From Pseudanabaena sp. PCC 6802 (lineage in GTDB: Bacteria > Cyanobacteriota > Cyanobacteriia > Pseudanabaenales > Pseudanabaenaceae): a stretch of 64,000 nucleotides of DNA. This document shows, piece by piece, positions 3,368 to 29,326 of this stretch. A program made the position numbers and the translations under genes. Each line of letters opens with the position of its first letter. Position 1 is the first letter of the stretch. Under the pieces are notes generated by a model. It saw only the letters and a program-made list of their open reading frames with translations, ran no database searches and was not told where the DNA came from. The stretch is taken from contig NZ_KB235914.1 of assembly GCF_000332175.1 (NCBI RefSeq), positions 1,613,368-1,677,367 on the forward strand. The letters run 5' to 3'.

Positions 3368-3457
3368 CTGGTTGCAGGTAGCACGCAATTTTGTAGCAGA
3401 TAAACTACGATAGGCAGGATACAAATGCATCGTCAAAGCGCCAGCAACAAGACGATT

Positions 3458-4642
3458 ATGGCTCAAGTACGAGATTCGCAGAAAACGTTTAAACCCTGGG
3501 TAGTGGGCGCGATCGCGATCGCCACCTCCCTGGGGGTATTTGCCATAATTTCTAATGTCCTGCAAGCTCAAGCGCCGAAACCTACAGAGACCGCCACTGC
3601 CACCCCCAGTAAAAACGTTACCGCCCTCGGTCGCATCGAGCCAATGGGGCAAGTAATTAAACTATCGGTAATTAATGCCCAGGATAGCCGCGTTGATAAG
3701 CTCTTAGTTCAAGAAGGTGACTACGTAAAGGCAGAGCAGGTAATTGCAGTTTTGCAAGGTTTAGATAAAAAGAAGGCGGCGTTGGCGGAGGCGGAACAGG
3801 AGCTAGCCGTGCAGGAAGCCAAACTAGCGCAAACCCTTGCCGGAGAATCAAAAGTGGGGGAAATCGCTGCTCAGGAAGCTAATATAGCTCAATTAGAAGC
3901 CCGCCTGCGTACCGAAACGGCTGAGAAAAAGGCTGCCATCGCTCGCATTGAGGCGGAATTGCGTAACGATCGAATTACCTATCAACGCTATCAAACTCTC
4001 CACCAGGAGGGGGCGGTCAATACTTCTGATATTGATGAAAAGCGTAAGAATTGGGAAACTTCCCAAGCTAAATTAGATGAGGCAAAAGCACAGTTGGCGA
4101 ACGCGGAATCTACGCTCAAGGAGCAAATCCGCCAGCAGCAGGCCACTCTAGATAAGTTGCAAGAAGTGCGTCCCGTTGATGTGAGAGTGGCGCAAGCGCA
4201 AATGCAATATTCCAAAACTAAGGTGGCGACTGCTAAAGCCGATCTCGATGATGTTTACGTGCGCGTACCCGTAGCGGGTAGAATCCTCAAGATCAATACC
4301 CGCATCGGCGAGCAGGTGAATACGCAGCAGGGCATTGTGGAGTTGGGGCAAACCGATCGGATGTACGCGATCGCGGAAGTCTACGAAACCGATGTCTATA
4401 AGATTAAGCCAGGTCAGAGAGCCAGAATAACCAGCGAAAATGGTGGCTTTGAAGGAGAGCTACAAGGCACTGTCGATCGTATCGGTCTGCAAATTAAAAA
4501 GAAAAATGTCTTAGATTCCGATCCTGCTGCCGACAAAGATGCACGTGTAGTTGAGGTGAAGATTCGCATCGATTCCAAAGATAGTAAGAAAGTGGAGGCT
4601 CTCACTAACCTTCAGACGCGGATTTCGATCTCCTTGAATTAG
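3458..4642 (+). CDS. devB: DevB-like membrane fusion protein (HlyD family) of an ABC exporter
   Basis: About 394 residues when started at ATG 3458 (MAQVRDSQ); an upstream ATG at 3425 would add 11 residues. A single N-terminal transmembrane anchor (WVVGAIAIATSLGVFAIIS) is followed by the first half of a lipoyl-like domain (VTALGRIEPMGQVIKLS). Then comes a long alpha-helical hairpin rich in Ala, Glu and Gln, the second lipoyl half (DVYVRVPVAGRILKINTRIGE) and a beta-barrel domain. This order is that of periplasmic adaptor proteins of the DevBCA type. Such adaptors link the inner-membrane DevC/DevA transporter to a TolC-like outer-membrane channel, and in heterocystous species they export glycolipids. 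It is the first gene of a devBCA operon, with 10 bp to devC. Confidence 0.9.
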   Translation: MAQVRDSQKTFKPWVVGAIAIATSLGVFAIISNVLQAQAPKPTETATATPSKNVTALGRIEPMGQVIKLSVINAQDSRVDKLLVQEGDYVKAEQVIAVLQGLDKKKAALAEAEQELAVQEAKLAQTLAGESKVGEIAAQEANIAQLEARLRTETAEKKAAIARIEAELRNDRITYQRYQTLHQEGAVNTSDIDEKRKNWETSQAKLDEAKAQLANAESTLKEQIRQQQATLDKLQEVRPVDVRVAQAQMQYSKTKVATAKADLDDVYVRVPVAGRILKINTRIGEQVNTQQGIVELGQTDRMYAIAEVYETDVYKIKPGQRARITSENGGFEGELQGTVDRIGLQIKKKNVLDSDPAADKDARVVEVKIRIDSKDSKKVEALTNLQTRISISLN

Positions 4643-4652
4643 TTTAATCGTC

Positions 4653-5837
4653 ATGAAACTGCTACCCGCCAAAGATTTGCTAGATAATCTCGCGCACGAA
4701 CTACCGCTGGGATGGTCGCAACTCGCCCACAAAAAAGTGCGCTTTGCCGTAGCGCTGGCAGGAATTGGGTTTGCCAACGTCTTGATCTTTATGCAGCTTG
4801 GGTTTAGCTCGGCTCTTTTTGACGGAGTTACCCGCATTCACGATCGCCTCAAAGGAGATCTATTTCTTGTCAGTAAGCGATCGAGATATCTCGGCAATCG
4901 CGGGTTCCCTCGGAGTCATTTATACCAGGCAGCAGCAGTGGATAACGTTGCTTCAGCCCGCCCTTTTTACTATGCCCTGTCAGGATGGCGAAACCCTGAA
5001 AATAGGCTATTTGAAGATGTGGGCGTAATCGCCTTCAACCCCTCGCAGCCAATTCTAGATCTGCCAGAGGTGGAGCAACAAATGGATAAGATCGTTATTC
5101 CCGATACCGTATTATTCGATCGCCTATCTCAAGTGACGCTCGGCCCCGTACCCGAGATGTTGGCACAAGGGAAGCGCGTCACCTCTGAAATTAACAAACG
5201 CAAAGTTATTGCCACTGGTACATTCACTTTGGGTGGCACCTTGTTTAAAAGCGGCCACGTTATCACCAGCGATTGGAATTACCTGCGCATCTTTGGCAAA
5301 GATAGTCTGGACGAAATTCAAGTTGGCGTAATTGCGCTCAATCCAGGTGCGGATATCCAAACCGTACGGAGAAATATTAAAGCCAGCGTCCCAGAAGAGA
5401 TTCTAGTTCTCACCCGTAAAGACTTCGTACAGGTAGAGATCGACTTCTGGTCGCAGCACCCCGCCGGAGTGATTTTTGGCTTTGGTACGATTATGGGCTT
5501 CATCGTCGGAGTTGTCGTGGTCTATCAAGTTCTGTATTCTGATGTCAGCGATCATCTACCAGAATACGCTACCCTAAAGGCAATGGGCTACTCTAATCGA
5601 CGATTGCTAGGAGTAGTTTTTCAAGAGGCAGTGATTCTCGCAGTCTGCGGTTTTGTGCCGGGGTGTTTGGCTTCCCTCGGCATGTACGCTGGTTTGAGCC
5701 ATCTGACCAAACTACCCGTAAATATGCGTCCTCATGTCGCTACCCAGGTGTTTGTCCTCACTGTTTCCATGTGTACGATTTCCGCCGCGATCGCCTCGCG
5801 CAAACTCCAATCTGCCGACCCTGCCGATGTGTTTTAG
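4653..5837 (+). CDS. devC: DevC-like ABC exporter permease (FtsX/MacB type)
   Basis: A 394-aa permease. It opens with WSQLAHKKVRFAVALAGIGFAN, the juxtamembrane helix and first membrane segment typical of DevC. A large extracytoplasmic domain follows (roughly residues 40-260), then three C-terminal membrane helices: FGFGTIMGFIVGVVVVYQVL, EAVILAVCGFVPGCLASLG and VATQVFVLTVSMCTISAAIA. DHLPEYATLKAMGYSNRRL is the cytoplasmic coupling segment conserved in FtsX-like permeases. It forms the transmembrane half of an exporter with the ATPase encoded 19 bp downstream. The cargo is not visible; in relatives it is a lipid or glycolipid. Confidence 0.92.
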   Translation: MKLLPAKDLLDNLAHELPLGWSQLAHKKVRFAVALAGIGFANVLIFMQLGFSSALFDGVTRIHDRLKGDLFLVSKRSRYLGNRGFPRSHLYQAAAVDNVASARPFYYALSGWRNPENRLFEDVGVIAFNPSQPILDLPEVEQQMDKIVIPDTVLFDRLSQVTLGPVPEMLAQGKRVTSEINKRKVIATGTFTLGGTLFKSGHVITSDWNYLRIFGKDSLDEIQVGVIALNPGADIQTVRRNIKASVPEEILVLTRKDFVQVEIDFWSQHPAGVIFGFGTIMGFIVGVVVVYQVLYSDVSDHLPEYATLKAMGYSNRRLLGVVFQEAVILAVCGFVPGCLASLGMYAGLSHLTKLPVNMRPHVATQVFVLTVSMCTISAAIASRKLQSADPADVF

Positions 5838-5856
5838 ATTTTAACTATTCCGCACT

Positions 5857-6570
5857 ATGCCTCCACAACCCACCGTTTCTATCCGCAATCTCAACCACGC
5901 TTTTGGTAGTGGCAATCTCCGTAAACCAGTACTTAGCGATATTGATTTAGATATCAATCCTGGCGAAGTGGTGTTGCTCACCGGCCCATCAGGGAGCGGT
6001 AAAACTACGCTGCTTACTTTGATTGGTGGGTTGCGATCGTTACAGGAGGGCAGTTTGCAAATCCTCGGCCAAGAGCTATATGGTGCCAGCCAGAAGCAAA
6101 TGGTACAGGTGCGCAGCAATATTGGCTTTATCTTCCAGTCCAACAACCTTTTGGAATGCCTCACTGCCCATCAGAATGTCAGAATGTCTCTGCGCTTGCA
6201 CGATCGCATTCCCATGCGAGATCGCACCAAACTTTCGGTGGCGATGCTGGAGGCTGTTGGTTTGGGCGATCGCGCTGACTACTATCCCGCTGCTCTATCT
6301 GGCGGGCAAAAACAGCGGGTGGCGATCGCGCGGGCTTTAGTCAGCCATCCCAAACTCATCCTCGCAGACGAACCGACCGCCGCCCTGGACAGTCGATCTG
6401 GTAGAGATGTGGTGGAAATTATGCAACGCTTGGCAAGGGAGCAGGGATGTGCGATTCTACTCGTCACCCACGACAATCGCATTCTCGACGTTGCCGATCG
6501 CATCGTCAACATGGAAGACGGTCGCCTTACAACGCAAGATACAGTTGCGATCGCGATGGCGACAGAGTAA
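5857..6570 (+). CDS. devA: DevA-like ABC exporter ATPase
   Basis: A 237-aa ABC ATPase of the LolD/MacB class. Walker A is [11 protein letters not shown], the Q-loop is GFIFQSNNL, the signature is [15 protein letters not shown], Walker B is [13 protein letters not shown] and the switch histidine is in LVTHDN. It completes the devBCA set. glcD starts 27 bp downstream on the same strand, so cotranscription is possible, although no functional link is obvious. DevA homologue status rests on both sequence class and the B-C-A gene order. Confidence 0.92.
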
Positions 6571-9374: not shown

Positions 9375-10484
9375 ATGATAACGCTTCAAAAAACAACTTC
9401 TACTTTTAATTTTTCTCCCGGCCCAGGGGCGCTTCCTCTGGTGGTTTTAGAGGAAACTAGACAGGCGCTCGAACGATTGCCAAACGTACCTTTGTCAATT
9501 TTGGGAATCGGTCACCGTTCGCCATGGTTTGATGAGATCCTAAACGAAGCGGAGTCGAATTTAAGAAGCCTGCTAAATATTCCCACATCCTATAAAATCT
9601 TATTCTTGCAAGGTGGTAGCAGCCTGCAGTTTTCGATGGTTCCGATGAATCTCTTGCGCGGGAGCAATCGCACGGCAGACTACATTGTCTCGGGGTATTG
9701 GAGCGCAAAATCTGTTCCTGATGCCCAAAGAGAAGGCAATGTCCGGATTGCATGGGATGGAAGTGCGGATGGATTCATGCGGTTGCCGAATCGCTCCGAA
9801 CTCAACTTGACTCCCGACGCAGCTTACTTGCACTATATTTCAAATGAGACAGTTGAAGGGCTGCAATTTAATAGTATTCCGGGACTTCCCAATATACCGT
9901 TGGTTTGCGACATGTCTTCGGATTTCCTTTCTAGACCCTTTGACATAAATCGGTATGCCCTGGTGTACGCTCACGCTCAGAAGAATTTAGGCCCTTCGGG
10001 GGTGACAGTAGTTATTCTGCACGAAGATCTCCTGGCTAACATCCCAGACAATCTACATACGATGCTGGATTACCGCCCCCATGTTCTCAAGCGATCGAAT
10101 TACAATACGCCGCCGGTTTTTAGCATTTACGTCATGATGTTAGTAACGCGTTGGATGCTACGGGAGATCGCGAGCTTGGATGAAATGCACGATCTGAACA
10201 AACAGAAAGCAGAACGACTTTATCAGTCGATTGATGAAAGCGAGGGATTTTATCGAGGTCGGGCAGCAATTCAAAATCGCTCTTTGATGAATGTTGTGTT
10301 TAATATGGCCAGTCCACAGTTAGAGGCGGAGTTCGCTCAAGAGGCTCAGGCAAATGGAATCTTTGGGCTGGCAGGACATCGAACTTTAGGGGGACTGCGC
10401 GCTTCGCTTTACAATGCAGTGACCCTTGAGGCTGTTGATGCTCTCTGTAGGTTTATGTACCGTTTCCATCGCCGCCATCGTTAG
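9375..10484 (+). CDS. serC: SerC-family phosphoserine-type aminotransferase, first gene of a biosynthetic operon
   Basis: A 369-aa PLP enzyme of the class V aminotransferase fold. The N-terminal FNFSPGPGALP, GHRSPWFDEI, ISNETVEGLQF, DMSSDFLSRP and AHAQKNLGPSGVTVVIL motifs are those of phosphoserine aminotransferase. The Schiff-base lysine is Lys203 and the substrate-phosphate arginines and histidine lie in GHRTLGGLRASLYNAV. The known reaction is 3-phosphohydroxypyruvate plus glutamate to phosphoserine. In model cyanobacteria serine synthesis uses a different class V aminotransferase, so this copy may serve the operon rather than general metabolism. It is followed after 12 bp by the next gene, with a GGAGGGAAAG RBS between them. 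The family call is firm, while the role in the cluster is inferred. Confidence 0.88.
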   Translation: MITLQKTTSTFNFSPGPGALPLVVLEETRQALERLPNVPLSILGIGHRSPWFDEILNEAESNLRSLLNIPTSYKILFLQGGSSLQFSMVPMNLLRGSNRTADYIVSGYWSAKSVPDAQREGNVRIAWDGSADGFMRLPNRSELNLTPDAAYLHYISNETVEGLQFNSIPGLPNIPLVCDMSSDFLSRPFDINRYALVYAHAQKNLGPSGVTVVILHEDLLANIPDNLHTMLDYRPHVLKRSNYNTPPVFSIYVMMLVTRWMLREIASLDEMHDLNKQKAERLYQSIDESEGFYRGRAAIQNRSLMNVVFNMASPQLEAEFAQEAQANGIFGLAGHRTLGGLRASLYNAVTLEAVDALCRFMYRFHRRHR

Positions 10485-10496
10485 GAGGGAAAGAAA

Positions 10497-11075
10497 ATGC
10501 AGTTTTTTCTACTCGATCCCCAAGATCCATTCCAGCGCAATGAATACGAGCGTGCTTTTTTTCAAGCTTTTGCCAACCTCACCTCAAATCGTCTCGTCCG
10601 AAAGCTCTGGCTTTGGGACGACACCAAGCAAACTTTGCGAACCCGCATCCCTTACGATCGCCAACTAATCTATGCAGTGCGGGATTCAGACGGTATTTTA
10701 GATGCTGCTCTAGCGGTAAACTACAAACCCTCACAATTTCAATCGGCTGCGTTTGGCTTCTCACCTCCAGCAAGCGATCGGCAGTATTGCGAACTCATAA
10801 ACATCTTTTCTCTTCGCAATCGACACCTGCATCGACTACTCCAACTCTTGAGCTACTGCTTCACCGACTTACGTCAACAGGGTTGCCAGAGTGCTCTGGG
10901 AACAACTGCGGAACGACCTCTTCGCTCTTATCTTTGGGCTGGCGCGCACCTATTGGCGCAAACCGAAATTGATGGGGAAAAGCGATACTTCTTTGAATTT
11001 CCAGAGTCTGCGTTAGATCGTTGGGCTAGAGCTGATATAGACCAATGCACGCGAACCGTTTCAAGATTGAAGTGA
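10497..11075 (+). CDS. GNAT-like protein of unknown function in biosynthetic operon
   Basis: A 192-aa protein without a firm family match. The second half (CELINIFSLRNRHLHRLLQLL, then FTDLRQQGCQSALGTT and SYLWAGAHLLAQTEIDGEKR) follows the helix-strand-helix rhythm of a GNAT acyltransferase. There is an acidic beta strand, a helix, a strand with a TT-like bulge, and a final G-bearing helix and strand. The usual acyl-CoA pyrophosphate loop (Q/RxxGxG/A) is not clear, so catalysis is uncertain. It follows serC by 12 bp and precedes the fusion gene by 74 bp. That position makes it part of the same transcript, perhaps an acyltransferase for the amino group formed by the first enzyme; that is inference. 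Confidence 0.5.
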   Translation: MQFFLLDPQDPFQRNEYERAFFQAFANLTSNRLVRKLWLWDDTKQTLRTRIPYDRQLIYAVRDSDGILDAALAVNYKPSQFQSAAFGFSPPASDRQYCELINIFSLRNRHLHRLLQLLSYCFTDLRQQGCQSALGTTAERPLRSYLWAGAHLLAQTEIDGEKRYFFEFPESALDRWARADIDQCTRTVSRLK

Positions 11076-11149
11076 AGATGATATTTCGATGCGAATGAGA
11101 ACGCCAGTAAGTCGAGTCAATTTTTAATTTTTTCAACCGAGCAACTACC

Positions 11150-13405
11150 ATGGTCTCTACCCTTCCAAGTTTATCCAGATCGATTCCACAGAACTGGCCT
11201 GCCCAGGGGCCTATCGATTTAGCAATACACGACCTACCTCACAATGCTGCCATTGAGTGGTGGTATATCAACAGCCATTTCACAACCACTGACGGTCGTT
11301 CTCTTTCGCTCTTTGCATCGTTTTTTCGTAAAATTATCGGTTATGACGACGCAACGCAAGAGCCGCAATACGGTCACGCGCTAACGTGGGCGCTGAGCGA
11401 TACAGACAATCATCGTTACCATGCGGTATCGCTGGGCGATCGCTCTGGGCCAAAGACGGTGCTGGAGATGATGGATGGTGGCGAAAAGATTCTCCAGGAT
11501 CCCTGGATGGAACGCACGCTGCGCAAAATGTTAGAAGCTGGGAAAATTCCTGCCCCCGATCGCATGTTTGCAGGAGAAGCATATGCAGCCAGCGATCGCC
11601 TGGAACTGAACTACGACGGCTCGCGATTTCTCAAGCGCGAGGACGGTAGCTACTTGCTCGAACTCTGCGATCCAGAAGCAAAAATTGCTTGCAAGCTGGT
11701 GTTAACTCCGACAAAGCCGCCTACCCGCTACGGAAATAATGGGGCGATCGAGTTCAATAAGTTAACTACGTTCTACTATTTCATTCCCAGATTGGATGCC
11801 AGCGGTTATATCGAACAAAATGGTAGCAAACATGCGATAGATACAGGTATTGCCTGGTATGATCGCGAATTTGGCAGTGTATATCGCGATGAGAGCGATC
11901 GCGAGAACAGCGTGGCAGGGGCTGCCTGGACCTGGATGAGCATTCAGCTTGACAGCGGCTCGGATTTGCTCGTTTCTATGCTGATTGACAAAAGCAACAA
12001 TAAACTCATAGACAAATTTACGATCCTTGTCGATCCCAAGGGTAATTCTCGTCAATACGAAGATTTCTCCCTCAGTCCTGACAATCTCTGGCGCAGTCAG
12101 CAGACATTCAACGACTATCCAACGCACTGGGTACTCCAGGTTCCGGCGGCGAATTTGGAGCTACAGATTGCAGCTTGCTTCGACGAGCAGGAGTTCATCA
12201 CGTTAATTGCAGCACCAGCATTCTGGGAAGGATGCATATCGATGCGCGGAACCATCGACGGGCAGTCGGTTGTCGGTCGCGGATACTTGGAACGCAAAGG
12301 CTTTAACACAATTCACAGCATCGACGATTTTTTTACCGCTGTCGGTCGGGAAGTGCAGAAGTCAATCCACAATCTCCTGCCGGATATCCCAAGCAACGAG
12401 CAGGTTCGCTTTCTGATTGCTAACGGTGGAAACCACGAACTCTTGAATGACATCGATACCAATCGATTTGCGCGCAATATCATCGAGCCAATCCGAGAGA
12501 TAAGCGATCGCGGCGGTAAGTCGTGGCGTTCCTACGCGCTGATGGCCTGTTGCAATGCCGTAGGTGGCGACTTCCGTCCGTACATGCACTTGTTGGGAAT
12601 GCCCGAGTTGATCCACGTTGGTTCCCTCATCGTGGATGACGTACAAGATCGATCGACGGTTCGCCGAGGTGGAAAAACCTGTCACTTACTCTATGGCGAA
12701 CCACTGGCAATCAATGCCGGAACGGCCTGCTATTTCTTGAGCGAACTTCTGCTTCCGTCTGCAAACCTTTCCCCCGATATCAGATTGCAACTTTACGAGC
12801 TATTCTTCAAGACATTTCGCGCCGCGCATACGGGCCAGGCTTTCGATCTAGCAGGGTTGAATTCCGAGATGGATGCTGTCGTTGCCAGCGGAGATAGCTC
12901 GAAACTAGAACGCCAGGTGCTTACAACATGCTGGCTGAAAACGGCTGTACCAGCAGGAACGGCAGCCCGTGCGGGCGGTCTCATCGGTGGTGGTAGCAAG
13001 GAGCAAATCGAAGCTCTCGGACAGTATCTCGAAGCCCTCGGTCTTGCCTTTCAAATTATCGACGATATTCTTAACTTGCGAGGTTTCGAGCGCAACCTCA
13101 AGTTCCGTGGCGAGGATATCATGCAAGGAAAGGTGACGCTTCCCGTTGTCAAAGCCATGTCGCGGCTAACCCATGCAGATCGAACCTGGCTCTGGAATAC
13201 GTTACAGTCACAACCCAAAGAACCAGCAATCGTGTCCGCCTGTATTGACACGATCGCGCGCTGTGGCGCTCTAGAGGCTTGCAGCGATCGCGCGAGGGAA
13301 ATGGTAGAAAATGCCTGGCAATCTCTCGATCCGTTGCTTAAGGACTCCCAAACCAAGATTATGCTGCGTGCCTTCGGATTTTATCTACTGGAGCGGCATT
13401 ACTAG
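11150..13405 (+). CDS. Fusion of AttH/CrtC lipocalin-like domain with a trans-prenyl diphosphate synthase
   Basis: A 751-aa two-domain protein. Residues about 20-400 show the AttH/CrtC (carotenoid hydratase / lipocalin-like) pattern. HNAAIEWWY is at about 31-39, AWYDREFGS, then AAWTWMSIQLDSGSDLL and VVGRGYLERKGF. Residues about 410-751 are a trans-isoprenyl diphosphate synthase. The first Asp-rich motif is DDVQD at 496-500 and RRGGKTCHLL follows it. The second is FQIIDDILN with Asp638/Asp639, and MQGKVTLPVVKAM lies after that. All metal-binding motifs are intact, so prenyl chain synthesis is likely. Small residues before the first motif (GSLIV) suggest a GGPP-length or longer product. The lipocalin-like half may hydrate or cyclise a prenylated intermediate. 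A separate housekeeping GGPP synthase lies at 46257-47186, which supports a dedicated role here. Confidence 0.82.
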   Translation: MVSTLPSLSRSIPQNWPAQGPIDLAIHDLPHNAAIEWWYINSHFTTTDGRSLSLFASFFRKIIGYDDATQEPQYGHALTWALSDTDNHRYHAVSLGDRSGPKTVLEMMDGGEKILQDPWMERTLRKMLEAGKIPAPDRMFAGEAYAASDRLELNYDGSRFLKREDGSYLLELCDPEAKIACKLVLTPTKPPTRYGNNGAIEFNKLTTFYYFIPRLDASGYIEQNGSKHAIDTGIAWYDREFGSVYRDESDRENSVAGAAWTWMSIQLDSGSDLLVSMLIDKSNNKLIDKFTILVDPKGNSRQYEDFSLSPDNLWRSQQTFNDYPTHWVLQVPAANLELQIAACFDEQEFITLIAAPAFWEGCISMRGTIDGQSVVGRGYLERKGFNTIHSIDDFFTAVGREVQKSIHNLLPDIPSNEQVRFLIANGGNHELLNDIDTNRFARNIIEPIREISDRGGKSWRSYALMACCNAVGGDFRPYMHLLGMPELIHVGSLIVDDVQDRSTVRRGGKTCHLLYGEPLAINAGTACYFLSELLLPSANLSPDIRLQLYELFFKTFRAAHTGQAFDLAGLNSEMDAVVASGDSSKLERQVLTTCWLKTAVPAGTAARAGGLIGGGSKEQIEALGQYLEALGLAFQIIDDILNLRGFERNLKFRGEDIMQGKVTLPVVKAMSRLTHADRTWLWNTLQSQPKEPAIVSACIDTIARCGALEACSDRAREMVENAWQSLDPLLKDSQTKIMLRAFGFYLLERHY

Positions 13406-13441
13406 ATTTCTTTTCTGCAGTCAATAGCAAAAGATAGTACC

Positions 13442-14488
13442 ATGTCAAGAAATTCTGCGATCGCTTCCGACTTAGAAGTTGAAAATTCCAGTACGAACTC
13501 TCGTTTTCCCTTCACGTCTTTCCCTAATGGGTGGTTTAGAGTGGCCTATAGCGACGAACTCGCTCTGGAAGAAGTCAAGCCACTATACTACTTTGGTAGA
13601 GACCTCGTCCTCTTTCGCACCATTGATGGTATTCCACATCTACTCGATGCCCATTGTCCCCATCTGGGCGCTCATCTCGGTTATGGGGCAAGCGTTGCAG
13701 GCGAAACGATTCGCTGTCCCTTTCACGGCTGGCAATTCAATGGCAGCGGTCGGTGTACAAACGTCCCCTATACAAAGGAGGTTCCTCCTAGAGCACAGAT
13801 TAACTCTTGGCCGATTTGTGAAGTTAACGGCCTGATTCTCGCGTACCACGATGCAGAGAGAAAAACTCCCTCATGGCAAGTACCAGAATTTACGCAGTGG
13901 AATGCTAAAGACTGGACTCCTTTCCACCGTCAATCCTGGAAAATTCGCACGCACGCGCAAGAGATGGTAGAGAATAGCGTGGATACAACGCACTTTGTAG
14001 CTCTACACGGGGCACATACCTGCGAGCATGCGTTCCTAAAAACAGATGGCACCATATTAACCAATCGAATGCGCGGGGGATATAACGTCTCCTTGTTAGA
14101 AAAACTTATGATTCGAGGCGATATTGAAATCGACTACACCTTCTACGGTCTGGGTTTGTATACAACTCACAGTACCGGGCTGCATAGGGTTCGCAGCTGG
14201 ATCGATGCAACCCTAAAGTTGAACACCATTTTGATCTTCATGCTAACTCCAATCGATCGCGAATATCTCGACGTACATATCCTTTACAGTATTCGGAAAT
14301 TTGCAAATGGTGCAGTTACGCGAGCCATCTACAAAAAGACCCTTGCAGACACAATTAAACTGATCGAACAGGACATCCCCATTATGGAAAATAAACTTTA
14401 CCGCAGCGCTCCTTTACTCTGCGAAGGCGATGGCCCCATTATGCAATGCCGTCACTGGGCGTGTCAATTTTACTCGGAGGGAATCTAG
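13442..14488 (+). CDS. Rieske non-haem iron oxygenase (KshA/DAF-36-like)
   Basis: A 348-aa oxygenase. The Rieske [2Fe-2S] motif is C72-P-H74 with 17 residues to C92-PF-H95 (HCPHLGAHLG then RCPFHGWQF). The mononuclear iron site is ENSVDTTHFVALHG with His184 and His189 and the bridging Asp181. The third ligand is probably the Asp of EQDIPIMENKLY near the C-terminus. The overall pattern resembles 3-ketosteroid 9-alpha-hydroxylase (KshA) and DAF-36/Neverland enzymes, which act on polycyclic terpenoids. That fits a terpenoid substrate from the preceding gene. It needs a reductase from elsewhere. Its stop is 2 bp before the P450 start, so translation is probably coupled. Confidence 0.88.
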   Translation: MSRNSAIASDLEVENSSTNSRFPFTSFPNGWFRVAYSDELALEEVKPLYYFGRDLVLFRTIDGIPHLLDAHCPHLGAHLGYGASVAGETIRCPFHGWQFNGSGRCTNVPYTKEVPPRAQINSWPICEVNGLILAYHDAERKTPSWQVPEFTQWNAKDWTPFHRQSWKIRTHAQEMVENSVDTTHFVALHGAHTCEHAFLKTDGTILTNRMRGGYNVSLLEKLMIRGDIEIDYTFYGLGLYTTHSTGLHRVRSWIDATLKLNTILIFMLTPIDREYLDVHILYSIRKFANGAVTRAIYKKTLADTIKLIEQDIPIMENKLYRSAPLLCEGDGPIMQCRHWACQFYSEGI

Positions 14489-14490
14489 CA

Positions 14491-15900
14491 ATGACTCTGC
14501 CAAATGGCCCTCAAGCCCCCACTCTCTTACAACTATTGCAGCTAAGATTCAATCCCACCCACTACCTGGAAGCGGCTAATCGAAGGTGCCCCAATCTATT
14601 TGCGCTGAAATCCGCTTGGAATTCCAACCATCTAGTGATTGTCAATCACCCGCAGGCTCTCCGTCAGATGTTCGCAAATGAAACGACTCAATTTGATGCT
14701 CCTGGACAGTTACATGAGTTTTTCAAACCATTTTTGGGAGATTACTCAGTGATGACAGTGGATGGCGATCGCCACCAGCGACAACGCCACCTCCTCATGC
14801 CTGCTTTTCATGGAGAAAGGGTGTGGACTTACGGCCAACAAATTTGTAGCCTCACGCGATCGGTGATGGATGGAGTTGCTTGCGATCGCCCGTTTACGGC
14901 TCGCTCTAACATGCAGGAAATCGCTCTGAAAATCATGCTAGAAGTCATATTTGGCATCAGCGATGGGAAGCGCAGTCAGCGTTTTGAATGGCTGATTCGC
15001 GCGATTTTCGAGATCTTCAAATCCCCTGTAAGCTCCACGCTAATATTCTCTACTGCCGCACGCTGGGATTTAGGTCCTTGGAGTCCGTGGGGACATTTCC
15101 TCTCCCTAAAGCGAGAGTTAGACGAACTGATTTATACTGAAATTGCCGATCGTCGTCAAAATCCCCATTCCGAACGGCATGACATTCTGGCGCTGTTGAT
15201 GTCAGCCTGCGATGAAGATGGCATCCCGATGAGCGATGTAGAGATACGCGATGAATTGCTCTCCCTTTTGCTCTCAGGACACGAGACGACATCCGCCATT
15301 CTAGCTTGGGCGCTGTATTGGGTGCATCACTTAAGCGATGTCCGCCAGAGATTGCTGGCAGAGTTAGATGCATTAGACGGCGATCGCGACCCTAAATCCC
15401 TGTATCGACTTCCCTACCTTACAGCCGTCTGCCAGGAAACCATGCGAATTTATCCTGTTGCCTTCATGACGTTCCCGCGAGTGGTGAGATCGCCAGTTCG
15501 CTTACTGGACTGCGATCTCGACCCCGGTACGGTTCTGCTCGGGTGCATCTATCTCACGCACCAGCGCGAAGATCTCTATCCCGATCCCAAGCAATTCAAA
15601 CCAGAACGATTTTTAGAACGTCAGTTTTCTCCTTATGAGTTTTTGCCTTTTGGCGGTGGCAGCCGTCGCTGTATTGGCGCAGCTTTAGCGCAGATGACGA
15701 TCTCACTAGTGTTGGCAACGATCCTCTCAAACTACGAACTGGAGTTGGTAGATCGCGAATCCATACGCCCCCAAGTTCGGGGTCTTCTGCTCGTTCCTTC
15801 AGGAGGGGTAACCATGCGTCTCAAAGGGAAGCGCTCAGAAAAAGAGAGGCAGTCTTCAATGGCAGAAAGTTATGCTCCTTTAAATGCGAGGTTTCTATGA
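14491..15900 (+). CDS. Cytochrome P450, CYP110-like
   Basis: A 469-aa P450 started at ATG 14491, which has GGAGGG 9 bp upstream; an earlier in-frame ATG at 14446 lies inside the Rieske gene and is rejected. The I-helix oxygen-activation motif is SGHETTSA (residues 262-269), the ExxR motif is ETMR at 316-319, and the haem-binding loop is FGGGSRRCIG with Cys394. That haem loop and the overall length match CYP110, a class common in cyanobacteria that oxidises fatty acids and terpenes. It probably hydroxylates the product of the operon. The stop codon overlaps the start of the glycosyltransferase gene (ATGA). Confidence 0.92.
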   Translation: MTLPNGPQAPTLLQLLQLRFNPTHYLEAANRRCPNLFALKSAWNSNHLVIVNHPQALRQMFANETTQFDAPGQLHEFFKPFLGDYSVMTVDGDRHQRQRHLLMPAFHGERVWTYGQQICSLTRSVMDGVACDRPFTARSNMQEIALKIMLEVIFGISDGKRSQRFEWLIRAIFEIFKSPVSSTLIFSTAARWDLGPWSPWGHFLSLKRELDELIYTEIADRRQNPHSERHDILALLMSACDEDGIPMSDVEIRDELLSLLLSGHETTSAILAWALYWVHHLSDVRQRLLAELDALDGDRDPKSLYRLPYLTAVCQETMRIYPVAFMTFPRVVRSPVRLLDCDLDPGTVLLGCIYLTHQREDLYPDPKQFKPERFLERQFSPYEFLPFGGGSRRCIGAALAQMTISLVLATILSNYELELVDRESIRPQVRGLLLVPSGGVTMRLKGKRSEKERQSSMAESYAPLNARFL

Positions 15901-17189
15901 GCAGCCGCATCGTAATTTGCACCAATGGCACCCTGGGCGACTTTTATCCTTATCTGGCGATCGCGCTGGAGTTGAAAGCGCGGGGTCACTCAGTAGTCCT
16001 TGCCACAGGAAGACTTTACCAAACAGAGGTTGAGACTCAGGGTATTGAGTTTTATCCCATTCAACCCGATCTTTCCTCTTATACTCCTGAAGCACTGCGA
16101 GCAGCGATAAGTAAGATGATGGATTGTAAACGAGGTACGGAATACGTTCTGCGCCAGCTATTGATCCCTCATGTCAAAACTAGTTACGATGCTATGATGG
16201 ATATTGTACGCGGAGCTGACTTGTTGCTGACCCACCCACTTTTCTTTGCAGGCCCCCTAGTAGCAGAGAAAACGGGCATTCGCTGGGTGTCTACCGTACT
16301 GGCTCCCATTTCAATTCCTTCGATTTACGATCCTGCCGTCCTGAACGCAGACAGTCTCATTCAGCCGAAAATGGTTAAGCCCTGGCTGGCTCGCCTTTTA
16401 CAGCAACTCGGTAGATGGTACCTGCGTCCCTGGAGCGAACCAATACGACAGCTACGTAACGAACTGGGTTTATCCATTGGAGGCGATCCGCTCTTTGAAG
16501 GTCAGTTTTCGCCTCACCTCGTCCTGGCACTGTTCTCTCAGGTTCTCGCTATTCCTCAACCGGACTGGCCTTCTCAGGTTCGCATCGCTGGTTTTATGTT
16601 TGACGATCGCGATCGTACCAATCGCTTGCCGCCAGAATTAATCGACTTCCTGGATGCAGGTTCTCCTCCTATCGTGTTTACGCTGGGTTCGTCAGCCGTT
16701 TGGGATGCGGATGACTTTTTTATAGAGAGTGCGCTGGCAGCGAGACGCTCAGGCTATCGCGCCGTCTTGCTCGCCGGGCCGGATGTCGATCGCTTGCCAT
16801 CGGAGTGTCTGTCAGAAAACATCGTTGCCTTTGGCTACGTTCCCCATTCAGCTCTGTTCCCACGTGCGGCAGCCATTGTACTCCACGGCGGCATTGGGAC
16901 TACAGCCCAAGCACTGCGCTCCGGTCGCCCGATGTTGTTCGTTCCCTACGCCCACGATCAGCCGGATAACGCTGCTCGCGCTAAGCGGTTGGGCGTTGCG
17001 CGCATTCTCTCTCGCCGTCGCTATAAGGCCAATCGCCTCGCAATCGAACTGAGATCGTTGCTTGAAGACAGCTCTTACACGAACCGCGCTGCAGAAATTA
17101 GCTTGCGAGTGCGGGCAGAAACTGGAGTTCGGGCAGCTTGCGATGCGATCGAAGCACAACTCAAAGTTCCACCCAGAGTTGTAACCTAG
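15897..17189 (+). CDS. GT1-family (UGT/MurG-like) glycosyltransferase
   Basis: A 430-aa GT-B fold enzyme. The N-terminal domain opens with IVICTNGTLGDFYPYLAIA, the glycine-rich acceptor-side loop of UGT and sterol or natural-product glucosyltransferases. The C-terminal donor domain has FGYVPHSALFPRAAAIVLHG, GIGTTAQALRSGRPMLFVP and AHDQPDNAARAKRLGVAR, the nucleotide-sugar signature. It is expected to add a sugar to a hydroxyl created by the Rieske or P450 enzyme. ATGA overlap with the P450 gene indicates translational coupling. The donor sugar and acceptor are not readable from the sequence. Confidence 0.9.
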   Translation: MSSRIVICTNGTLGDFYPYLAIALELKARGHSVVLATGRLYQTEVETQGIEFYPIQPDLSSYTPEALRAAISKMMDCKRGTEYVLRQLLIPHVKTSYDAMMDIVRGADLLLTHPLFFAGPLVAEKTGIRWVSTVLAPISIPSIYDPAVLNADSLIQPKMVKPWLARLLQQLGRWYLRPWSEPIRQLRNELGLSIGGDPLFEGQFSPHLVLALFSQVLAIPQPDWPSQVRIAGFMFDDRDRTNRLPPELIDFLDAGSPPIVFTLGSSAVWDADDFFIESALAARRSGYRAVLLAGPDVDRLPSECLSENIVAFGYVPHSALFPRAAAIVLHGGIGTTAQALRSGRPMLFVPYAHDQPDNAARAKRLGVARILSRRRYKANRLAIELRSLLEDSSYTNRAAEISLRVRAETGVRAACDAIEAQLKVPPRVVT

Positions 17190-17225
17190 CAATTTCCACA
17201 TTATCGTTTAGGAGCAAATTTCTGA

Positions 17226-18056
17226 ATGACACGATTTAATCTACCTTCTGTTGCAGAGGTCACCCTTAAGAACGGCGCAAAGATCTTCTGCCTGCATAAA
17301 GGTGAAGCACAATTTATGGCTGAAGAGGTCAAAGAGTATCTCAAACATGGTATTGAGATTCAAGAAGGCGATACTATATTCGATGTAGGCGCTAATATTG
17401 GCGTTTTTACAATCTGGGCATACCAGCTATGCGATCGCAATGCCAACATCTATGCCTTTGAGCCAATTCCCAAAATTTTTGACGTGCTGTTCCGCAATGC
17501 TCGACGTTTCAATTTCGAGAATCTGAAAGTATTTCCATACGGGCTGGCACAGGAACCTAAAACAGCGACATTCGCCTATTATCCCGCTGCAACACTGTGG
17601 TCGAGTGCCGATCTCGACTTTTCCAAAGAACAGATTGAGGAGTCAAAGAATGCCGTACTCCGCAATATCGAAGCAACACCTCTCTGGTTTCAGCGTCTTC
17701 CCGGTTTCCTGCGAAAAGCCTTTGTTGATTATATGTTTGGGAGAACAACTAGGAATGCGGAGCGCGTCACCTGTCAATTGAGGACGCTTTCTGAAGTTGT
17801 CCGCGAACAATGCATTTGTCAGATTGACTTGCTCAAAATAGATGTCGAAAAAGGTGAGTTGGATGTTCTTCTCGGGATTGAAGAACGAGATTGGCCTAAA
17901 ATCAAACAAGTTGCGATCGAAGTTCACGATGTAGATCGTCGAGTCGAGACGATTTCGGCTTTGCTCAAAGCACGCGGACTGGACGCGATTACCGTAGACC
18001 AGCAACCTATCCTCAAAGGTTCCAGCGTTTTCCTACTTTATGCTAAGCGCCAGTAG
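17226..18056 (+). CDS. FkbM-family SAM-dependent methyltransferase
   Basis: A 276-aa methyltransferase. The SAM-binding motif I is IFDVGANIGVFTIWA, the acidic end of beta-2 is AFEPIPKIF, and the C-terminal FkbM block is DLLKIDVEKGELDVLLGI followed by IKQVAIEVHD. FkbM enzymes usually O-methylate sugars or hydroxyls in natural products and polysaccharides. It is the last gene of the run that begins with serC, 36 bp after the glycosyltransferase, and may methylate the added sugar. The next gene is convergent and ends 32 bp away. Confidence 0.9.
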   Translation: MTRFNLPSVAEVTLKNGAKIFCLHKGEAQFMAEEVKEYLKHGIEIQEGDTIFDVGANIGVFTIWAYQLCDRNANIYAFEPIPKIFDVLFRNARRFNFENLKVFPYGLAQEPKTATFAYYPAATLWSSADLDFSKEQIEESKNAVLRNIEATPLWFQRLPGFLRKAFVDYMFGRTTRNAERVTCQLRTLSEVVREQCICQIDLLKIDVEKGELDVLLGIEERDWPKIKQVAIEVHDVDRRVETISALLKARGLDAITVDQQPILKGSSVFLLYAKRQ

Positions 18057-18088
18057 CAAGAAATCCAACTTCGCAATAATACAGATTT

Positions 18089-21000
18089 TCAGCGCTCAAC
18101 TGCACCCAAAGCCTGCAAGGTAACTTTTTGAGCGGTAGTTAAACCCGTGACACCTTTGATATTCATACCTTCGTAGGGACGATCTACGCGCAGGGTCTTC
18201 AGACATTCCCCCGATCGCGTATCCCAAAAACGAATGGTTTCATCTTCTCCCGCACTGGCTAAAATGTGAGCTTCTTCGCTGTTAGGGCTGAAGGCGATCG
18301 CCCAGACTGGCTTGCTATGCCCGACGAGTGTTTGGATACAAACAGCATCGCGAGGACTCCAGACCTTAACGAGGCAATCATCGCCGCAGGTCGCCAGGAT
18401 CTTATGTTTAGGGCTGGGATGCAGGATAGCGGCTCGCACGGGACGCTCGTGACCTTCCAAAGTTTGGAGGCATTCATAGGTTTCACCATGCCAAAATTTC
18501 ACCGTGCGATCGCCACTGCTACTGGTCAGGCGAGCGCCACAAGGACTATAAGCTACAGACGAGATCCATCCTTCATGACCGGATAAAACCTGGAGGCAAT
18601 TGCCAGTTGCGATATCCCAGATCCGAACGTTTTTGTCATCGCTTCCGCTCGCGAGTGTCTTGCCATTAGGATGGAAGACTATCGACTTGACGCGATCGCT
18701 ATGCCCTTTAAAAATATGCAAGCATTCGCCAGTAACGATATCCCACAACCTCACGGTCTGGTCGTGGCTGCTACTAGCGATAGTTTTACCGTCAGGACTA
18801 AATGCCACAGATTGAATCCAACTACTATGCCCGAGGAAGGTTCTCATACATTCGCCACTGCTGACATCCCATAGCTTTATGCTGCGATCGTCGCTGCCAC
18901 TGAGAATAGTCTTGCTGTCGGGGCTAAACGCTACCGCTGGCACCCAATTAGTATGCCCTCGCAATACTTTAATGCATTTGCCAGTACTTACATCCCATAT
19001 CCTTGCCGACCGATCCTTATTTCCACTTGCAAGCAAACGTCCATCACTACTGAACGATAGAGATGAAATCATATTACTATGCGATTCCAATGTCTTTAGA
19101 CATTGCCCAGTTGCGGTATCCCAAATCTTGACGATCTCATCTTCACCCACACTAACCAGCACAGATCTATCCATGCTAAAGTTTACGGACCAGACGCGAT
19201 CGCTATGACCGTGGAAAGTTTTCACTCGTTTACCATTGGCGATATCCCATATCTGCACGGTTCTGTCTTCATTGCCAATTGCAAGCAATCGATCGTCGGC
19301 ACTGAAGTCGATCGCCCAGGCATATTGGCTATAGCCCTGTAAGGCGTGCGAGAAGGTACCAGTTATGGCATTGTATAATCCGATCTTATTGCCATCGCAG
19401 CCGATCGCCAGAATTTTTCCATCATGACTGAGCGCGATGGATAGCATCCAATTGATATTGACTGGAATTATATATTGGCACTCTCCTGTAGTTAAATTCC
19501 ATAAATCTACCCAACGATCGCTGCCACTAATCAGGTTTTTTCCGTCGGAGCTAAAAATTACTGCCGTAACGCGATCGCCTTGTGCCTGTATGGTTTGAAG
19601 GCAGGCACCATCGCTAACCTGCCATAATTTAATCGTGCAATCGCTACTACCACTAGCCAGAATGCTGCTGTCCGGGCTAAAGAAAACAGAAAGGACGCGC
19701 CCGCTATGACCGCGTAAGGTCTTTAAACATTGCCCCGTGCAAGCATCCCACAGCCTTACAGTACCGTCATGGCTCCCACTGGCAAGGATACTGCCATCGG
19801 AACTAAACTTCAACGCTACTACCCAATCCGTATGACCGCAAAGATTAAAAAGTAACTTACCACTGCTAAGTTGCCAGATACAAATTTCCTGCTCTAAACC
19901 CGTAGCCAGAACCTGGCTGTCGGGGCTAATCGCAGTCGAAAGAATGCTACCAGTCGTTCTAATAAATACAGATCTGCTTAAATCAGCTCGTGCAAAGTTG
20001 ACGTAGTGAAGATTAATCCCCTGAAGATAGGCTTGCCACACGGCAATGTTAGAAAAATCAAAATAGCTTAAATCGATGTCCAAACAGTGCATCAAATTGA
20101 GAATATTGCCGCCAGCGTAACCCAATCTTTTAGGACTTTGCTCTCTCATGTCTGAGAGCATCCGATCGAAGTAGGCTTTGGTACGATCTTCAGTCACGAA
20201 AAAACGCCGTAACATGTCTGCCAGCGGCTTGAGGACTAATCTGACTTGCGTTTCGCGAATATAGTCTTTAGCCTGGGCTTTGATGAGAGCGTAGGTATTC
20301 CAGTAAGGGAGATCGTGCATTAAAACAGGTCGAGTATTGGTAATTTCCAAGTAAATTTGCTCGACTAGACGATCGCTAACATACTCCATTACTACGGGTT
20401 GTTGGGTAAAGCTGTGTTGCTGTTTTTCGATTAGCGATCGCACTTTGAGCGACTCCAATGCCTCTATTAGCTGCCTCGGTAAAACTGGCGTGACAAAGTC
20501 TTCCTGGAGGGTACTGATATCTATCCATTCACGGTTAATTGCCAGCCAGAACATCACCTGTTGCTCTAGATGAGTGAGGCGGTTAAACTGCTGTTCGATC
20601 AAATCGCGAATGTCGCCAAACACAGAATTATGGCTCGTCCAAAAAGCAGCAACATCGCTGCCGTACTGCTCGCGTATCCTGGTTGCAACAATCTTCAGAG
20701 CTAATGGATTGCCCCCATAATGCTGAATCAAAGAATGCCACTGTTCTTCAGAACCGGACAGACCTTTCACCCTAAAAATCTCGCTTCCTTCCGATTGCAA
20801 TCCACTTAAGAGAAACGAACGTACTGGTAACCTTGGCCCTTCATTCGATGACATTCCACTTGGTTTCTCGCGGCTAGTCAAGATCGCACAACTGTTATGA
20901 AGTTCGTCGCCAATACGACGCAGCATTTGACCGTAATTTTCATAGCCAGGTCGATATAAGCCAACGCGATAGTCGATCTCGCTGCCACCATCCCCAGCAC

Positions 21001-21769
21001 TTCTAAGAATTGATTCAAAATTATCCAAAACGATCAAACAGCGCTCGGAGCGCAAATAATCCATCAATTTTGTCAACAACCCATCAAGAGTCTGCGGCAT
21101 TGCCACGCTATCTCCCCTTCGATCCGCGATCGCCTGGATGGAGCTGACTAAGATGCTTTCCACTGTAGGCGCATTCCGCAGCGATCGCCAAATCACGAAT
21201 CTGAAAGCCTTAAACGCCGATCGTGCTTCCCTCCTTTCCTCACCATCTTCTCCAACCTCCAGCCCTTCACCGCCAAACTCTAAAATCTTTTCAACTAACT
21301 TCGCTACCAAAGATGTCTTCCCAATTCCCCCCATGCCTAGAATGGCAACTAAACGGCAGCGATCGGAAGTAATCCATTCAAACAAAGTATCCAATTCCTG
21401 CACGCGCCCACAAAATATTGAGACATCAATTACCTCATCACAATCCTGGTAAATCGATACTTTCTGACTTTGTGGCAAAGTAATTTCAGTATCCAATACT
21501 TTTACTCGTCGCTGACAACGACTCAGGACGGCTCGAATGTTTCCTTTGCTGACTGGTTCGCCGAGAATTTCGCTCAGGGTATGCCAAACCTCAGAGCCAA
21601 CTTTCCTGACATAGTCTCCATCATAGTCAGAGTTGTTTGCCATCTCCGCATAGGTACTTCCTTCGCAGCTTTGGCGAATTACTAATTCTTGAACATCTGT
21701 GAAGGTATCGGATCGCCCTCTTTGCCGCATGACTTCATACAACACGGCGATCGCTTCTGTGCCGTTCAT
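18089..21769 (-). CDS. NB-ARC ATPase with 14 WD40 repeats (STAND protein)
   Basis: A 1226-aa protein. Residues 1-90 are a helical N-terminal domain of the kind found before NB-ARC in cyanobacterial STAND proteins (vMAP-like). The NTPase domain starts with VSIFCGRVQELDTLFEWI, has the P-loop GMGGIGKTSL (145-154) and Walker B CLIVLDNFESIL. A short pentapeptide-like stretch (LQGINLHYVNFARADLSRSVF) leads into 14 WD40 repeats, enough for two seven-bladed propellers. Most repeats end in a GH/WD pair, and repeat 4 lacks residues in its last strand. STAND proteins oligomerise on ligand sensing, and some act in phage defence or programmed death. No separate effector domain is obvious. The gene is monocistronic and convergent with the biosynthetic operon. 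Confidence 0.88.
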   Translation of the reverse strand: MNGTEAIAVLYEVMRQRGRSDTFTDVQELVIRQSCEGSTYAEMANNSDYDGDYVRKVGSEVWHTLSEILGEPVSKGNIRAVLSRCQRRVKVLDTEITLPQSQKVSIYQDCDEVIDVSIFCGRVQELDTLFEWITSDRCRLVAILGMGGIGKTSLVAKLVEKILEFGGEGLEVGEDGEERREARSAFKAFRFVIWRSLRNAPTVESILVSSIQAIADRRGDSVAMPQTLDGLLTKLMDYLRSERCLIVLDNFESILRSAGDGGSEIDYRVGLYRPGYENYGQMLRRIGDELHNSCAILTSREKPSGMSSNEGPRLPVRSFLLSGLQSEGSEIFRVKGLSGSEEQWHSLIQHYGGNPLALKIVATRIREQYGSDVAAFWTSHNSVFGDIRDLIEQQFNRLTHLEQQVMFWLAINREWIDISTLQEDFVTPVLPRQLIEALESLKVRSLIEKQQHSFTQQPVVMEYVSDRLVEQIYLEITNTRPVLMHDLPYWNTYALIKAQAKDYIRETQVRLVLKPLADMLRRFFVTEDRTKAYFDRMLSDMREQSPKRLGYAGGNILNLMHCLDIDLSYFDFSNIAVWQAYLQGINLHYVNFARADLSRSVFIRTTGSILSTAISPDSQVLATGLEQEICIWQLSSGKLLFNLCGHTDWVVALKFSSDGSILASGSHDGTVRLWDACTGQCLKTLRGHSGRVLSVFFSPDSSILASGSSDCTIKLWQVSDGACLQTIQAQGDRVTAVIFSSDGKNLISGSDRWVDLWNLTTGECQYIIPVNINWMLSIALSHDGKILAIGCDGNKIGLYNAITGTFSHALQGYSQYAWAIDFSADDRLLAIGNEDRTVQIWDIANGKRVKTFHGHSDRVWSVNFSMDRSVLVSVGEDEIVKIWDTATGQCLKTLESHSNMISSLSFSSDGRLLASGNKDRSARIWDVSTGKCIKVLRGHTNWVPAVAFSPDSKTILSGSDDRSIKLWDVSSGECMRTFLGHSSWIQSVAFSPDGKTIASSSHDQTVRLWDIVTGECLHIFKGHSDRVKSIVFHPNGKTLASGSDDKNVRIWDIATGNCLQVLSGHEGWISSVAYSPCGARLTSSSGDRTVKFWHGETYECLQTLEGHERPVRAAILHPSPKHKILATCGDDCLVKVWSPRDAVCIQTLVGHSKPVWAIAFSPNSEEAHILASAGEDETIRFWDTRSGECLKTLRVDRPYEGMNIKGVTGLTTAQKVTLQALGAVER

Positions 21770-22039
21770 TACGTATTAATTCGCAGTTACTCTAGGGGTA
21801 TAAGGAATTAAGGATGGTCAGATCGCAAGATCGTAAAATAATCATATAACTTTCATCGAAGTCTGGAAAGCTCTATCTTAGTGGCAGCAATACTGGTAAA
21901 GCTTTCCGGTCGCGCTTCTCTTGAGTGCAGCTTGCCCTCGTTCGATCGTACGAACCGAATTTCACAGGTGAATATTTGCGTGTTAAGGTTCAGTATGTTT
22001 GTTAGGGTATCTTTACAAGCTGGTAGGGTGTAATGAAAA

Positions 22040-23557: not shown

Positions 23558-23571
23558 AGAGAGGAATAGCG

Positions 23572-27344: not shown

Positions 27345-27995
27345 ATGGTCACTACTCCAGTTGCACCTATATCTTTCGATCTACCTGAGAAGCGGGTGGT
27401 GCTTTACGACCTCAGTTGGCAAGCCTATGAGACGATTTTGGCGGCACTGGGCGATCGTCGATCGGCACAGCTCACTTATTACAAAGGCATGTTGGAAATT
27501 ATGACCCCGTTGGAGTCGCACGAGAATTCTAAGCATGTCATTGGAAATTTCATCGAAATCCTAGTGGACGAAGGGGATTTTGAGGGCATCAAAGGTATGG
27601 GATCGACGACGCTTAATTTCCCAACTCTGCATTCAGGAGCCGAACCCGACCAAGCTTACTATATTGCCAATGAGTCGCTGGTACGAGGAAAGACAGTGGA
27701 TCTCAAGACCGATCCGCCGCCCGATTTAATTCTGGAAGTGGATATTACTCATACCGACATCGACAAAAATGCGCTCTATGCTGAAATGGGCGTGCCAGAG
27801 TTTTGGCGCTATAACGGACGTACCCTCACAATTTATGCTCTGGAAGCTGACAGCTATCAGGAAGTAGAGGTTAGTCCAACATTTCCGGGAGTTCCCAAGG
27901 AGAGGCTTTATGAGTATTTGCGAGACTGCGCTGAGGTGGGCGAAAAGCAGGCCAAGTGGAATTTGCGTAATTGGCTGCAACAACAAAAGAGTTAG
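27345..27995 (+). CDS. Uma2-family (DUF820) putative nuclease
   Basis: A 216-aa protein of the PD-(D/E)XK-like Uma2 family. Visible motifs are LTYYKGMLEIMTPLESHE near residue 45-60, HSGAEPDQAYYI (the acidic active-site strand) and PPPDLILEVDITHTDIDK, the (D/E)xE core followed by the family K/Y site in MGVPEFWRYNGRTLTIYAL. Uma2 genes are multicopy in cyanobacteria, often mobile, and of unproven function. A decayed duplicate of its 5' region lies directly downstream (28031-28160). The gene follows two dispersed elements. Confidence 0.85.
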   Translation: MVTTPVAPISFDLPEKRVVLYDLSWQAYETILAALGDRRSAQLTYYKGMLEIMTPLESHENSKHVIGNFIEILVDEGDFEGIKGMGSTTLNFPTLHSGAEPDQAYYIANESLVRGKTVDLKTDPPPDLILEVDITHTDIDKNALYAEMGVPEFWRYNGRTLTIYALEADSYQEVEVSPTFPGVPKERLYEYLRDCAEVGEKQAKWNLRNWLQQQKS

Positions 27996-29321: not shown

Positions 29322-29326
29322 GCATT

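Follow-up and report, generated by a model that had tools for sequence, protein, structure and literature searches.

In the passages cited here, three enzymes are described that work at the end of an isoprenoid: kievitone hydratase, which hydrates a prenyl C=C bond (PMC5805349); carotenoid 1,2-hydratase (CrtC), which hydrates a terminal isoprenoid C=C bond (PMC4717167); and a putative 25-phosphosteroid lyase, which takes a phosphate off tertiary C25, so that a terminal-type alkene results (PMC11061730). A tertiary centre at the isoprenoid end is common to all three. The alanine scan excerpted from PMC4717167 found H239, W241, Y266 and D268 of RgCrtC essential, with D268 as the proposed acid, and the cited portion of PMC12402844 adds that W283 and W285 also matter and that RgCrtC acts on C12-C20 terpenes, geranylgeraniol at 4%. 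AttH (NE1406, 2ich) is a stand-alone protein of unproven function. Making GGPP and then transforming it within one protein is described for fungal prenyltransferase-cyclase fusions such as PaFS, in the cited part of PMC8190136. Two entries for copalyl diphosphate synthase, 9q3i and 8v0f, likewise have their synthase-like part at the C-terminal end. We take the second domain of PaFS, 9q3i and 8v0f to be a helical terpene cyclase, not a beta barrel. The gromomycin (PMC12105684) and sordaricin (PMC9095873) systems employ other enzymes according to the cited extracts.

Here we analyse a gene in a 64,000-nucleotide stretch of the Pseudanabaena sp. PCC 6802 genome (the window) that joins a CrtC/AttH-type double barrel to a trans-prenyl diphosphate synthase. 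The original prediction held it unusual for a single polypeptide both to build and to modify a prenyl chain; given the fungal fusions this needs some qualification, since it is the type of partner domain that sets the present protein apart. It would work like the fungal fusions without being one of them. Plasmid records annotate such fusions as 'polyprenyl synthetase family protein', and no characterised member of the family was found in the open-access literature searched.

Gene and domain structure

The fused gene and its two domains are as follows.

11150-13405 (+), fused CrtC/AttH-type double-barrel and trans-prenyl diphosphate synthase gene, 751 aa
11252-12298 (+), residues 35-383, N domain, two calycin-like beta barrels (Pfam CrtC, PF07143, and Lipocalin_9, PF17186; AlphaFold2 strands)
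12320-13402 (+), residues 391-751, C domain, all-helical trans-prenyl synthase (Pfam; AlphaFold2; GGPP synthase 1wy0, Z 38.4)

The frame contained no internal stop, and all three Pfam domains exceeded their curated cut-offs: the CrtC N-terminal lipocalin at residues 35-243 (62.8 bits, cut-off 22.5), Lipocalin_9 at 258-384 (82.5 bits, cut-off 26.2) and polyprenyl_synt (PF00348) at 444-701 (160.9 bits, cut-off 27). AlphaFold2 (AF2) modelled the full-length protein from a 20-row alignment as two confident domains (mean pLDDT 89.3, pTM 0.88), with strands over residues 35-383 and helices over 391-747. The fusion of CrtC/AttH and prenyl synthase domains proposed from the DNA alone, its predicted two-domain fold and its EWWY, YDREFG, GRGYLE, DDVQD and DDILN motifs were all recovered in this one frame. 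Two ways in which that proposal might have failed can be set aside. The N part does not lack a lipocalin-like fold, as it was modelled confidently by itself (pLDDT 88.4, pTM 0.88) and aligned to AttH with Z 36.7. A sequencing error or gene-fusion artefact is excluded, since 19 other full-length genome loci, and the plasmid records of Tolypothrix PCC 7601, Tolypothrix PCC 7712 and Streptomyces canus, have these domains in identical order within a single frame.

Barrel domain

Among the solved structures listed by Foldseek and VIA-align, AttH ranked first (over 308 residues), ahead of kievitone hydratase (Z 32.0 over 300 residues). The fungal Diels-Alderases CghA, Fsa2 and Phm7, of the same fold, followed at Z 23-24 and 25-phosphosteroid lyase at Z 22.3-22.6; the next unrelated entry reached only Z 8.2, in a ranking that holds among the families listed and does not thereby exclude others. 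When a profile of 22 N domains was searched against all PDB sequences, AttH (5e-41) and kievitone hydratase (1.6e-18) were the sole matches with E under 0.1. By its Pfam scores and the double lipocalin-like barrel predicted for it, the N domain belongs to the CrtC/AttH superfamily; AF2 made it mainly of beta barrels, not a helical class I or II cyclase domain. That AttH/CrtC relatives hydrate carotenoids or act as pericyclases, as first suggested, agrees with the isoprenoid hydratases in the cited parts of PMC4717167, PMC12402844 and PMC5805349 and with the Diels-Alderases in the fold search.

Conserved motifs were located in an alignment of 23 fusions.

11255-11266 (+), residues 36-39, EWWY; E36 in 23/23 rows, W38 in 22/23 (one gap)
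11855-11875 (+), residues 236-242, WYDREFG; D238 aligned with RgCrtC D268 and is proposed as proton donor
11927-11935 (+), residues 260-262, WTW, aligned with W283/W285 of RgCrtC, cation-stabilising in the cited part of PMC12402844
residues 376-381, GRGYLE, placed from the residue numbering (G376, E381)

Trp, Asp and Glu residues of the domain were strongly conserved over five phyla. The column of D238 held Asp in 19 of 23 rows, Glu in three and Gln in one, while W260 and W262 were kept in 21 and 22 rows. In Polyangium sp. 15x6 (L027), a full-length fusion has both Trp of the WxW pair replaced, by V and R, which makes it a natural test of what the pair does. A proposed mapping of RgCrtC W110 onto the EWWY motif was uncertain and was dropped.

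For comparison with CrtC we assembled six annotated or homologous sequences from plasmid records (6 of 11 records found), in which H119, W121, Y146, D148, W163 and W165 were invariant and spaced like the six RgCrtC residues. The N domain aligned to this set modestly with hhalign (E 3.6e-4, probability 37%), pairing D238 with the Asp, W260 and W262 with the WxW, W236 with the Tyr, F208 with the Trp and T206 with the His. CrtC and the fusion thus share the Pfam CrtC domain and the Asp268 and WxW positions, but only D268 of the four residues essential in RgCrtC is identical (W241 corresponds to F208, Y266 to W236 and H239 to T206, in one of the less conserved columns, ranked 213 of 390). With other residues at the places of that Tyr, that Trp and the catalytic His, the N domain is, as aligned, not CrtC proper; CrtC, unlike the fusion, has His239, carotenoid substrates and no synthase domain.

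Kievitone hydratase of Nectria haematococca (7a0q/7a0t), a prenyl C=C enzyme, came closer. It has WYDRQWG and WTW at matching places and is identical to the fusion at W236, Y237, D238, R239, W260 and W262, so that a WYDR-x-[FW]-G plus WxW signature lies on the same double-barrel fold in both. It differs in being a stand-alone fungal protein with a signal peptide, a phytoalexin substrate and no prenyl synthase, at 16% identity, and from these sequences we would credit the fusion with the kievitone hydratase signature only, not with membership. AttH, the closest relative in both fold and sequence, also has the Asp and WxW, and these residues are therefore not specific to hydratases.

Synthase domain

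The C domain had the features of a trans-polyprenyl diphosphate synthase (PF00348): the Pfam score, both Asp-rich motifs, an Arg pair, a Lys and a Gln.

12635-12649 (+), residues 496-500, first Asp-rich motif DDVQD; D496, D497 and D500 in 23/23 rows
12731-12736 (+), Y528-F529, chain-length floor position, with H560; aligned to yeast GGPP synthase 2dh4
13061-13075 (+), residues 638-642, second Asp-rich motif DDILN; D638 and D639 in 23/23 rows

Both Asp-rich motifs are intact, as claimed at the outset, with all five metal-site Asp, as well as R505, R506, K597 and Q635 of the active site, present in every row. At the chain-length floor Y528 was found in 23/23 rows, F529 in 20/23 (Y in three) and H560 in 23/23, matching chain positions 112, 113 and 144 of 2dh4, which we take to be native Y107, F108 and H139 of the yeast enzyme. 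In yeast GGPP synthase the Y107/F108/H139 floor halts elongation at C20. Since this Y/F/H floor of the eukaryote-type (type III) GGPP synthase is kept, the alignment suggests a C20 product, GGPP. The fusion also shares the LIVDDVQD...RRG, YF, H.GQ.LD and DDxLN features with 2dh4. It differs in being fused and in having a GGPP product that is so far a prediction. Its best PDB sequence match by profile, moreover, was the archaeal GGPP synthase 1wy0, closely followed by long-chain and other GGPP synthases.

Distribution and evolution of the fusion

The fusion is real and more widespread than the original prediction could see. Close to home it was rare: no full-length match occurred in the 57 other relatives searched (three had partial synthase matches), and at E<=1e-25 a class sample of 388 genomes yielded only the genome itself and one contig-edge fragment (genome G299, 52% identity over residues 559-744). 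tblastn against plasmids recovered Tolypothrix PCC 7601 and PCC 7712 (34% identity, 98% query coverage) and, at 30% identity, Streptomyces canus. When 84,980 species genomes were scanned, the window protein as lone query found no match and a four-row alignment as query found the family, with 497 relatives, the best 80 of which included 19 full-length fusions (27-50% identity) and two contig-edge pieces. These fusions came from Myxococcota, Bacteroidota (including the isolates Flavobacterium sp. 1355 and Membranihabitans marinus), Cyanobacteriota (Cyanosarcina), Actinomycetota and Planctomycetota, plus one MAG labelled Proteobacteria. The N-domain profile gave 22 other matches in a 386-genome phylum sample, all in frames of <=621 aa with no full fusion among them, and a split version, with a stand-alone AttH gene adjoining a stand-alone synthase relative, was sought in the loci collected and not found.

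Two plasmid loci stood out in their architecture. In Tolypothrix PCC 7601 (L009:11649-16178, also L108), a 1509-aa chain combined a sulfotransferase, a glycosyltransferase, the CrtC/AttH part and the prenyl synthase; DevB/DevC/DevA relatives and IS701 transposases flanked it, and the adenylyl-sulfate kinase gene cysC lay about 10 kb off. The locus suggests a sulfated terpenoid glycoside made mostly by one chain. On a conjugative plasmid of Nitrosomonas stercoris (L011:13359-15308), a synthase of the family adjoins genes for an FMO-type monooxygenase and an LCM methyltransferase; its N part had no CrtC/AttH profile match, and no N domain was recognisable in it.

Trees of the N and C domains from the same 23 fusions agreed broadly by eye, with the Bacteroidota, an Archangium pair and Streptomyces grouped in both and some open forks differing. 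We also built a synthase tree by a quick method, with long branches, from the 23 fusions and 32 single-domain synthases (from 29 of the 59 control loci and three others). It placed 22 of the 23 fusion synthases in one group (SH-aLRT 98), which also takes in two single-domain synthases of actinobacterial origin, nested beside the Nocardiopsis and Streptomyces fusions; the remaining fusion synthase, L031, sits beside the main group on a branch of almost no support (2). An exclusive clade of the 23 fusion synthases was rejected (AU test, p 0.003) because these two actinobacterial synthases nest inside, as is expected if they lost their N domains. A single fusion event with later loss of the N domain is the simplest reading. 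The nested synthases are L012:11971-12996, which retains adjoining ABC transporter genes, and L033:10001-10915, which has a P450 within 3 kb.

Operon and neighbouring genes

The genes from 9375 to 18056 share a strand, overlap or stand 12 to 74 bases apart, and form a likely operon.

3425-6570 (+), DevB-, DevC- and DevA-like exporter genes (HlyD, FtsX, ABC ATPase), a possible export partner of weaker association
9375-10484 (+), SerC-type aminotransferase (NCBIfam), an accessory gene that opens the likely operon
10497-11075 (+), 192-aa protein between the transaminase and the fusion, no Pfam or NCBIfam match
13442-14488 (+), Rieske oxygenase with KshA_C domain (Pfam)
14446-15900 (+), cytochrome P450 (PF00067, E 3.6e-69)
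15897-17189 (+), GT1/GT28-type glycosyltransferase (Pfam, NCBIfam); the Tolypothrix counterpart is fused into the same protein
17226-18056 (+), FkbM-family methyltransferase (Pfam, NCBIfam)

The P450 and Rieske genes overlap by 43 bases, and two genes, one on the opposite strand, separate the DevBCA-like genes from the operon. The aminotransferase scored 547 bits against PRK12462 (cut-off 563) and 437 bits against PRK05355 (cut-off 253). This SerC-type phosphoserine transaminase has a housekeeping look, yet a search of 38 other relatives gave nothing for it at E<=1e-60; it may supply an amino-bearing part of the product. In the class sample, none of 290 other genomes matched the Rieske gene at E<=1e-50. 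Because neither gene has matches in the relatives searched at these thresholds, the operon looks as if it was acquired as a block. Directly after it, on the opposite strand, comes a 1226-aa protein with many WD40 repeats (18089-21769). Further on, GC content dips to 0.396 at 28001-30000 from about 0.49 around it, over a GIY-YIG-domain gene (28074-29321) with a Uma2-type gene just before (27345-27995).

Neighbours were counted at 26 related loci (short contigs and the N-domain-less L012 included, the window excluded) against 59 control synthase loci. With the window's own ABC protein as query, a DevA-like ATPase was found within 3 kb at 7 of the 26 related loci, L012 among them, and at 0 of 59 controls; the Tolypothrix fusion is placed between DevB and DevC/DevA relatives. 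Glycosyltransferases occurred within 3 kb at 5/26 loci versus 0/59, a count that is biased, as three of the four queries came from counted loci (L009, L015, L022) and the L009 glycosyltransferase is part of the same polypeptide; the window glycosyltransferase as sole query matched in L009, L014 and L022. FkbM followed the fusion directly in two other cyanobacterial loci, Cyanosarcina (L015) and G299 (L008), with a glycosyltransferase next, and had no match in Tolypothrix. Relatives of the Rieske and P450 genes were seen neither within 5 kb of the 26 loci nor among 20 chosen neighbour proteins scanned beside other fusions, where gene calls were misled by antisense frames in GC-rich loci. Given their absence within 5 kb, the Rieske and P450 are probably local tailoring genes.

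Proposed function and alternatives

We lean, with somewhat more belief than doubt, towards a bifunctional enzyme that makes GGPP and whose barrel then protonates the far end of the chain, leading to hydration or, less probably, cyclisation. The C domain would condense IPP with allylic diphosphates, most likely ending at C20. Between its two barrels the N domain would bind the distal, hydrophobic end of that chain, where D238 could protonate the terminal C=C and W236, W260 and W262 could stabilise the tertiary cation. Water would then quench the cation to a tertiary alcohol in the manner of kievitone hydratase and CrtC; alternatively an inner double bond might attack it and close rings, in the style of class II cyclases. 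We rank hydration above ring closure since the nearest solved prenyl-end enzymes of the fold are hydratases or a lyase. The product would be oxidised by the Rieske and P450 enzymes, glycosylated, methylated and probably exported. The Glu (3/23) and Gln (1/23) at D238, the loss of W260 and W262 in Polyangium and the absence of a recognisable N domain in Nitrosomonas count against this mechanism. So do the single identity (D268) among the four essential RgCrtC residues, the Asp and WxW in AttH, the modest hhalign match to CrtC and the lack of Rieske or P450 relatives within 5 kb of the 26 loci.

It was also suggested that the barrel may replace a terpene cyclase missing from the operon. In line with this, the genome had no match to SQHop_cyclase_N or Terpene_syn_C_2 (one Pfam family for each cyclase class), so that no competing conventional cyclase of these two kinds was found. 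It encodes one CrtC-family protein and three prenyl synthases. The nearest prenyl-end enzymes, as hydratases and a lyase, favour hydration instead. Talk of a missing cyclase moreover presumes that one is needed, and the tailored product could be acyclic. The further proposal that the family are calycin-fold, proton-initiated terpene cyclases fused to their own GGPP synthase, so that a single bacterial protein would carry C5 units through to a diterpenyl diphosphate that is cyclised or hydroxylated, is one we regard as tentative and on balance doubtful.

The main rival makes the N domain a non-catalytic prenyl carrier that collects the synthase's isoprenoid and delivers it to an ABC exporter of the FtsX type, as AttH might do. 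AttH has recurring ABC neighbours: stand-alone AttH genes adjoin ABC genes in both rhizobial records examined, AttH has an FtsX-permease match next to it at 5 of 9 short cyanobacterial loci, and the cited portion of PMC2954199 reports the same link. The DevA-like ATPases near 7/26 related loci (with L012 lacking the N domain) and the DevB/DevC/DevA genes flanking the Tolypothrix fusion fit a carrier too. Yet 19 of the 26 loci, several of them contig ends, have no such ABC gene within 3 kb, L012 has the exporter but no N domain, and the retained proton-donor and cation-box residues are those of kievitone hydratase, all of which leaves a carrier unlikely. Lower still we place a hydratase or isomerase working on a later, oxidised intermediate instead of GGPP, the fusion tying only expression and location. 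The oxygenase genes of the operon and the kievitone hydratase substrate, an already decorated prenyl compound in the cited part of PMC5805349, would suit it, but with no Rieske or P450 relative among the 20 scanned neighbours or within 5 kb of the 26 loci, a late substrate shared by the family is unlikely.

A structural or regulatory add-on, with the protein merely an extra GGPP synthase, seems to us a shade less probable again: two actinobacterial relatives do keep the synthase with no N domain, and the genome already has a CrtE-type GGPP synthase at 46257-47207, but strong conservation of Trp, Asp and Glu in the N domain over five phyla argues for more than an appendage. Hardly credible is a lipocalin-like pericyclase. 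CghA, Fsa2 and Phm7 have the same fold, but their Z of 23-24 falls far below the 32-37 of kievitone hydratase and AttH, and no PKS or NRPS partner was present among the scanned window proteins of 9375-24549.

Implications

Genome mining by known cyclase families would take this fusion for an ordinary prenyl synthase. Should the barrel work on the distal end of the chain, the family would give access to terpenoids of an untapped class, spread over five or more phyla, and to a compact enzyme that needs no cofactor to make a C20 chain and then hydrate (or cyclise) it. The long-standing puzzle of what AttH does is also linked to isoprenoids here, through a directly testable protein. The fusion may be an unstudied one-protein route to a modified terpene.
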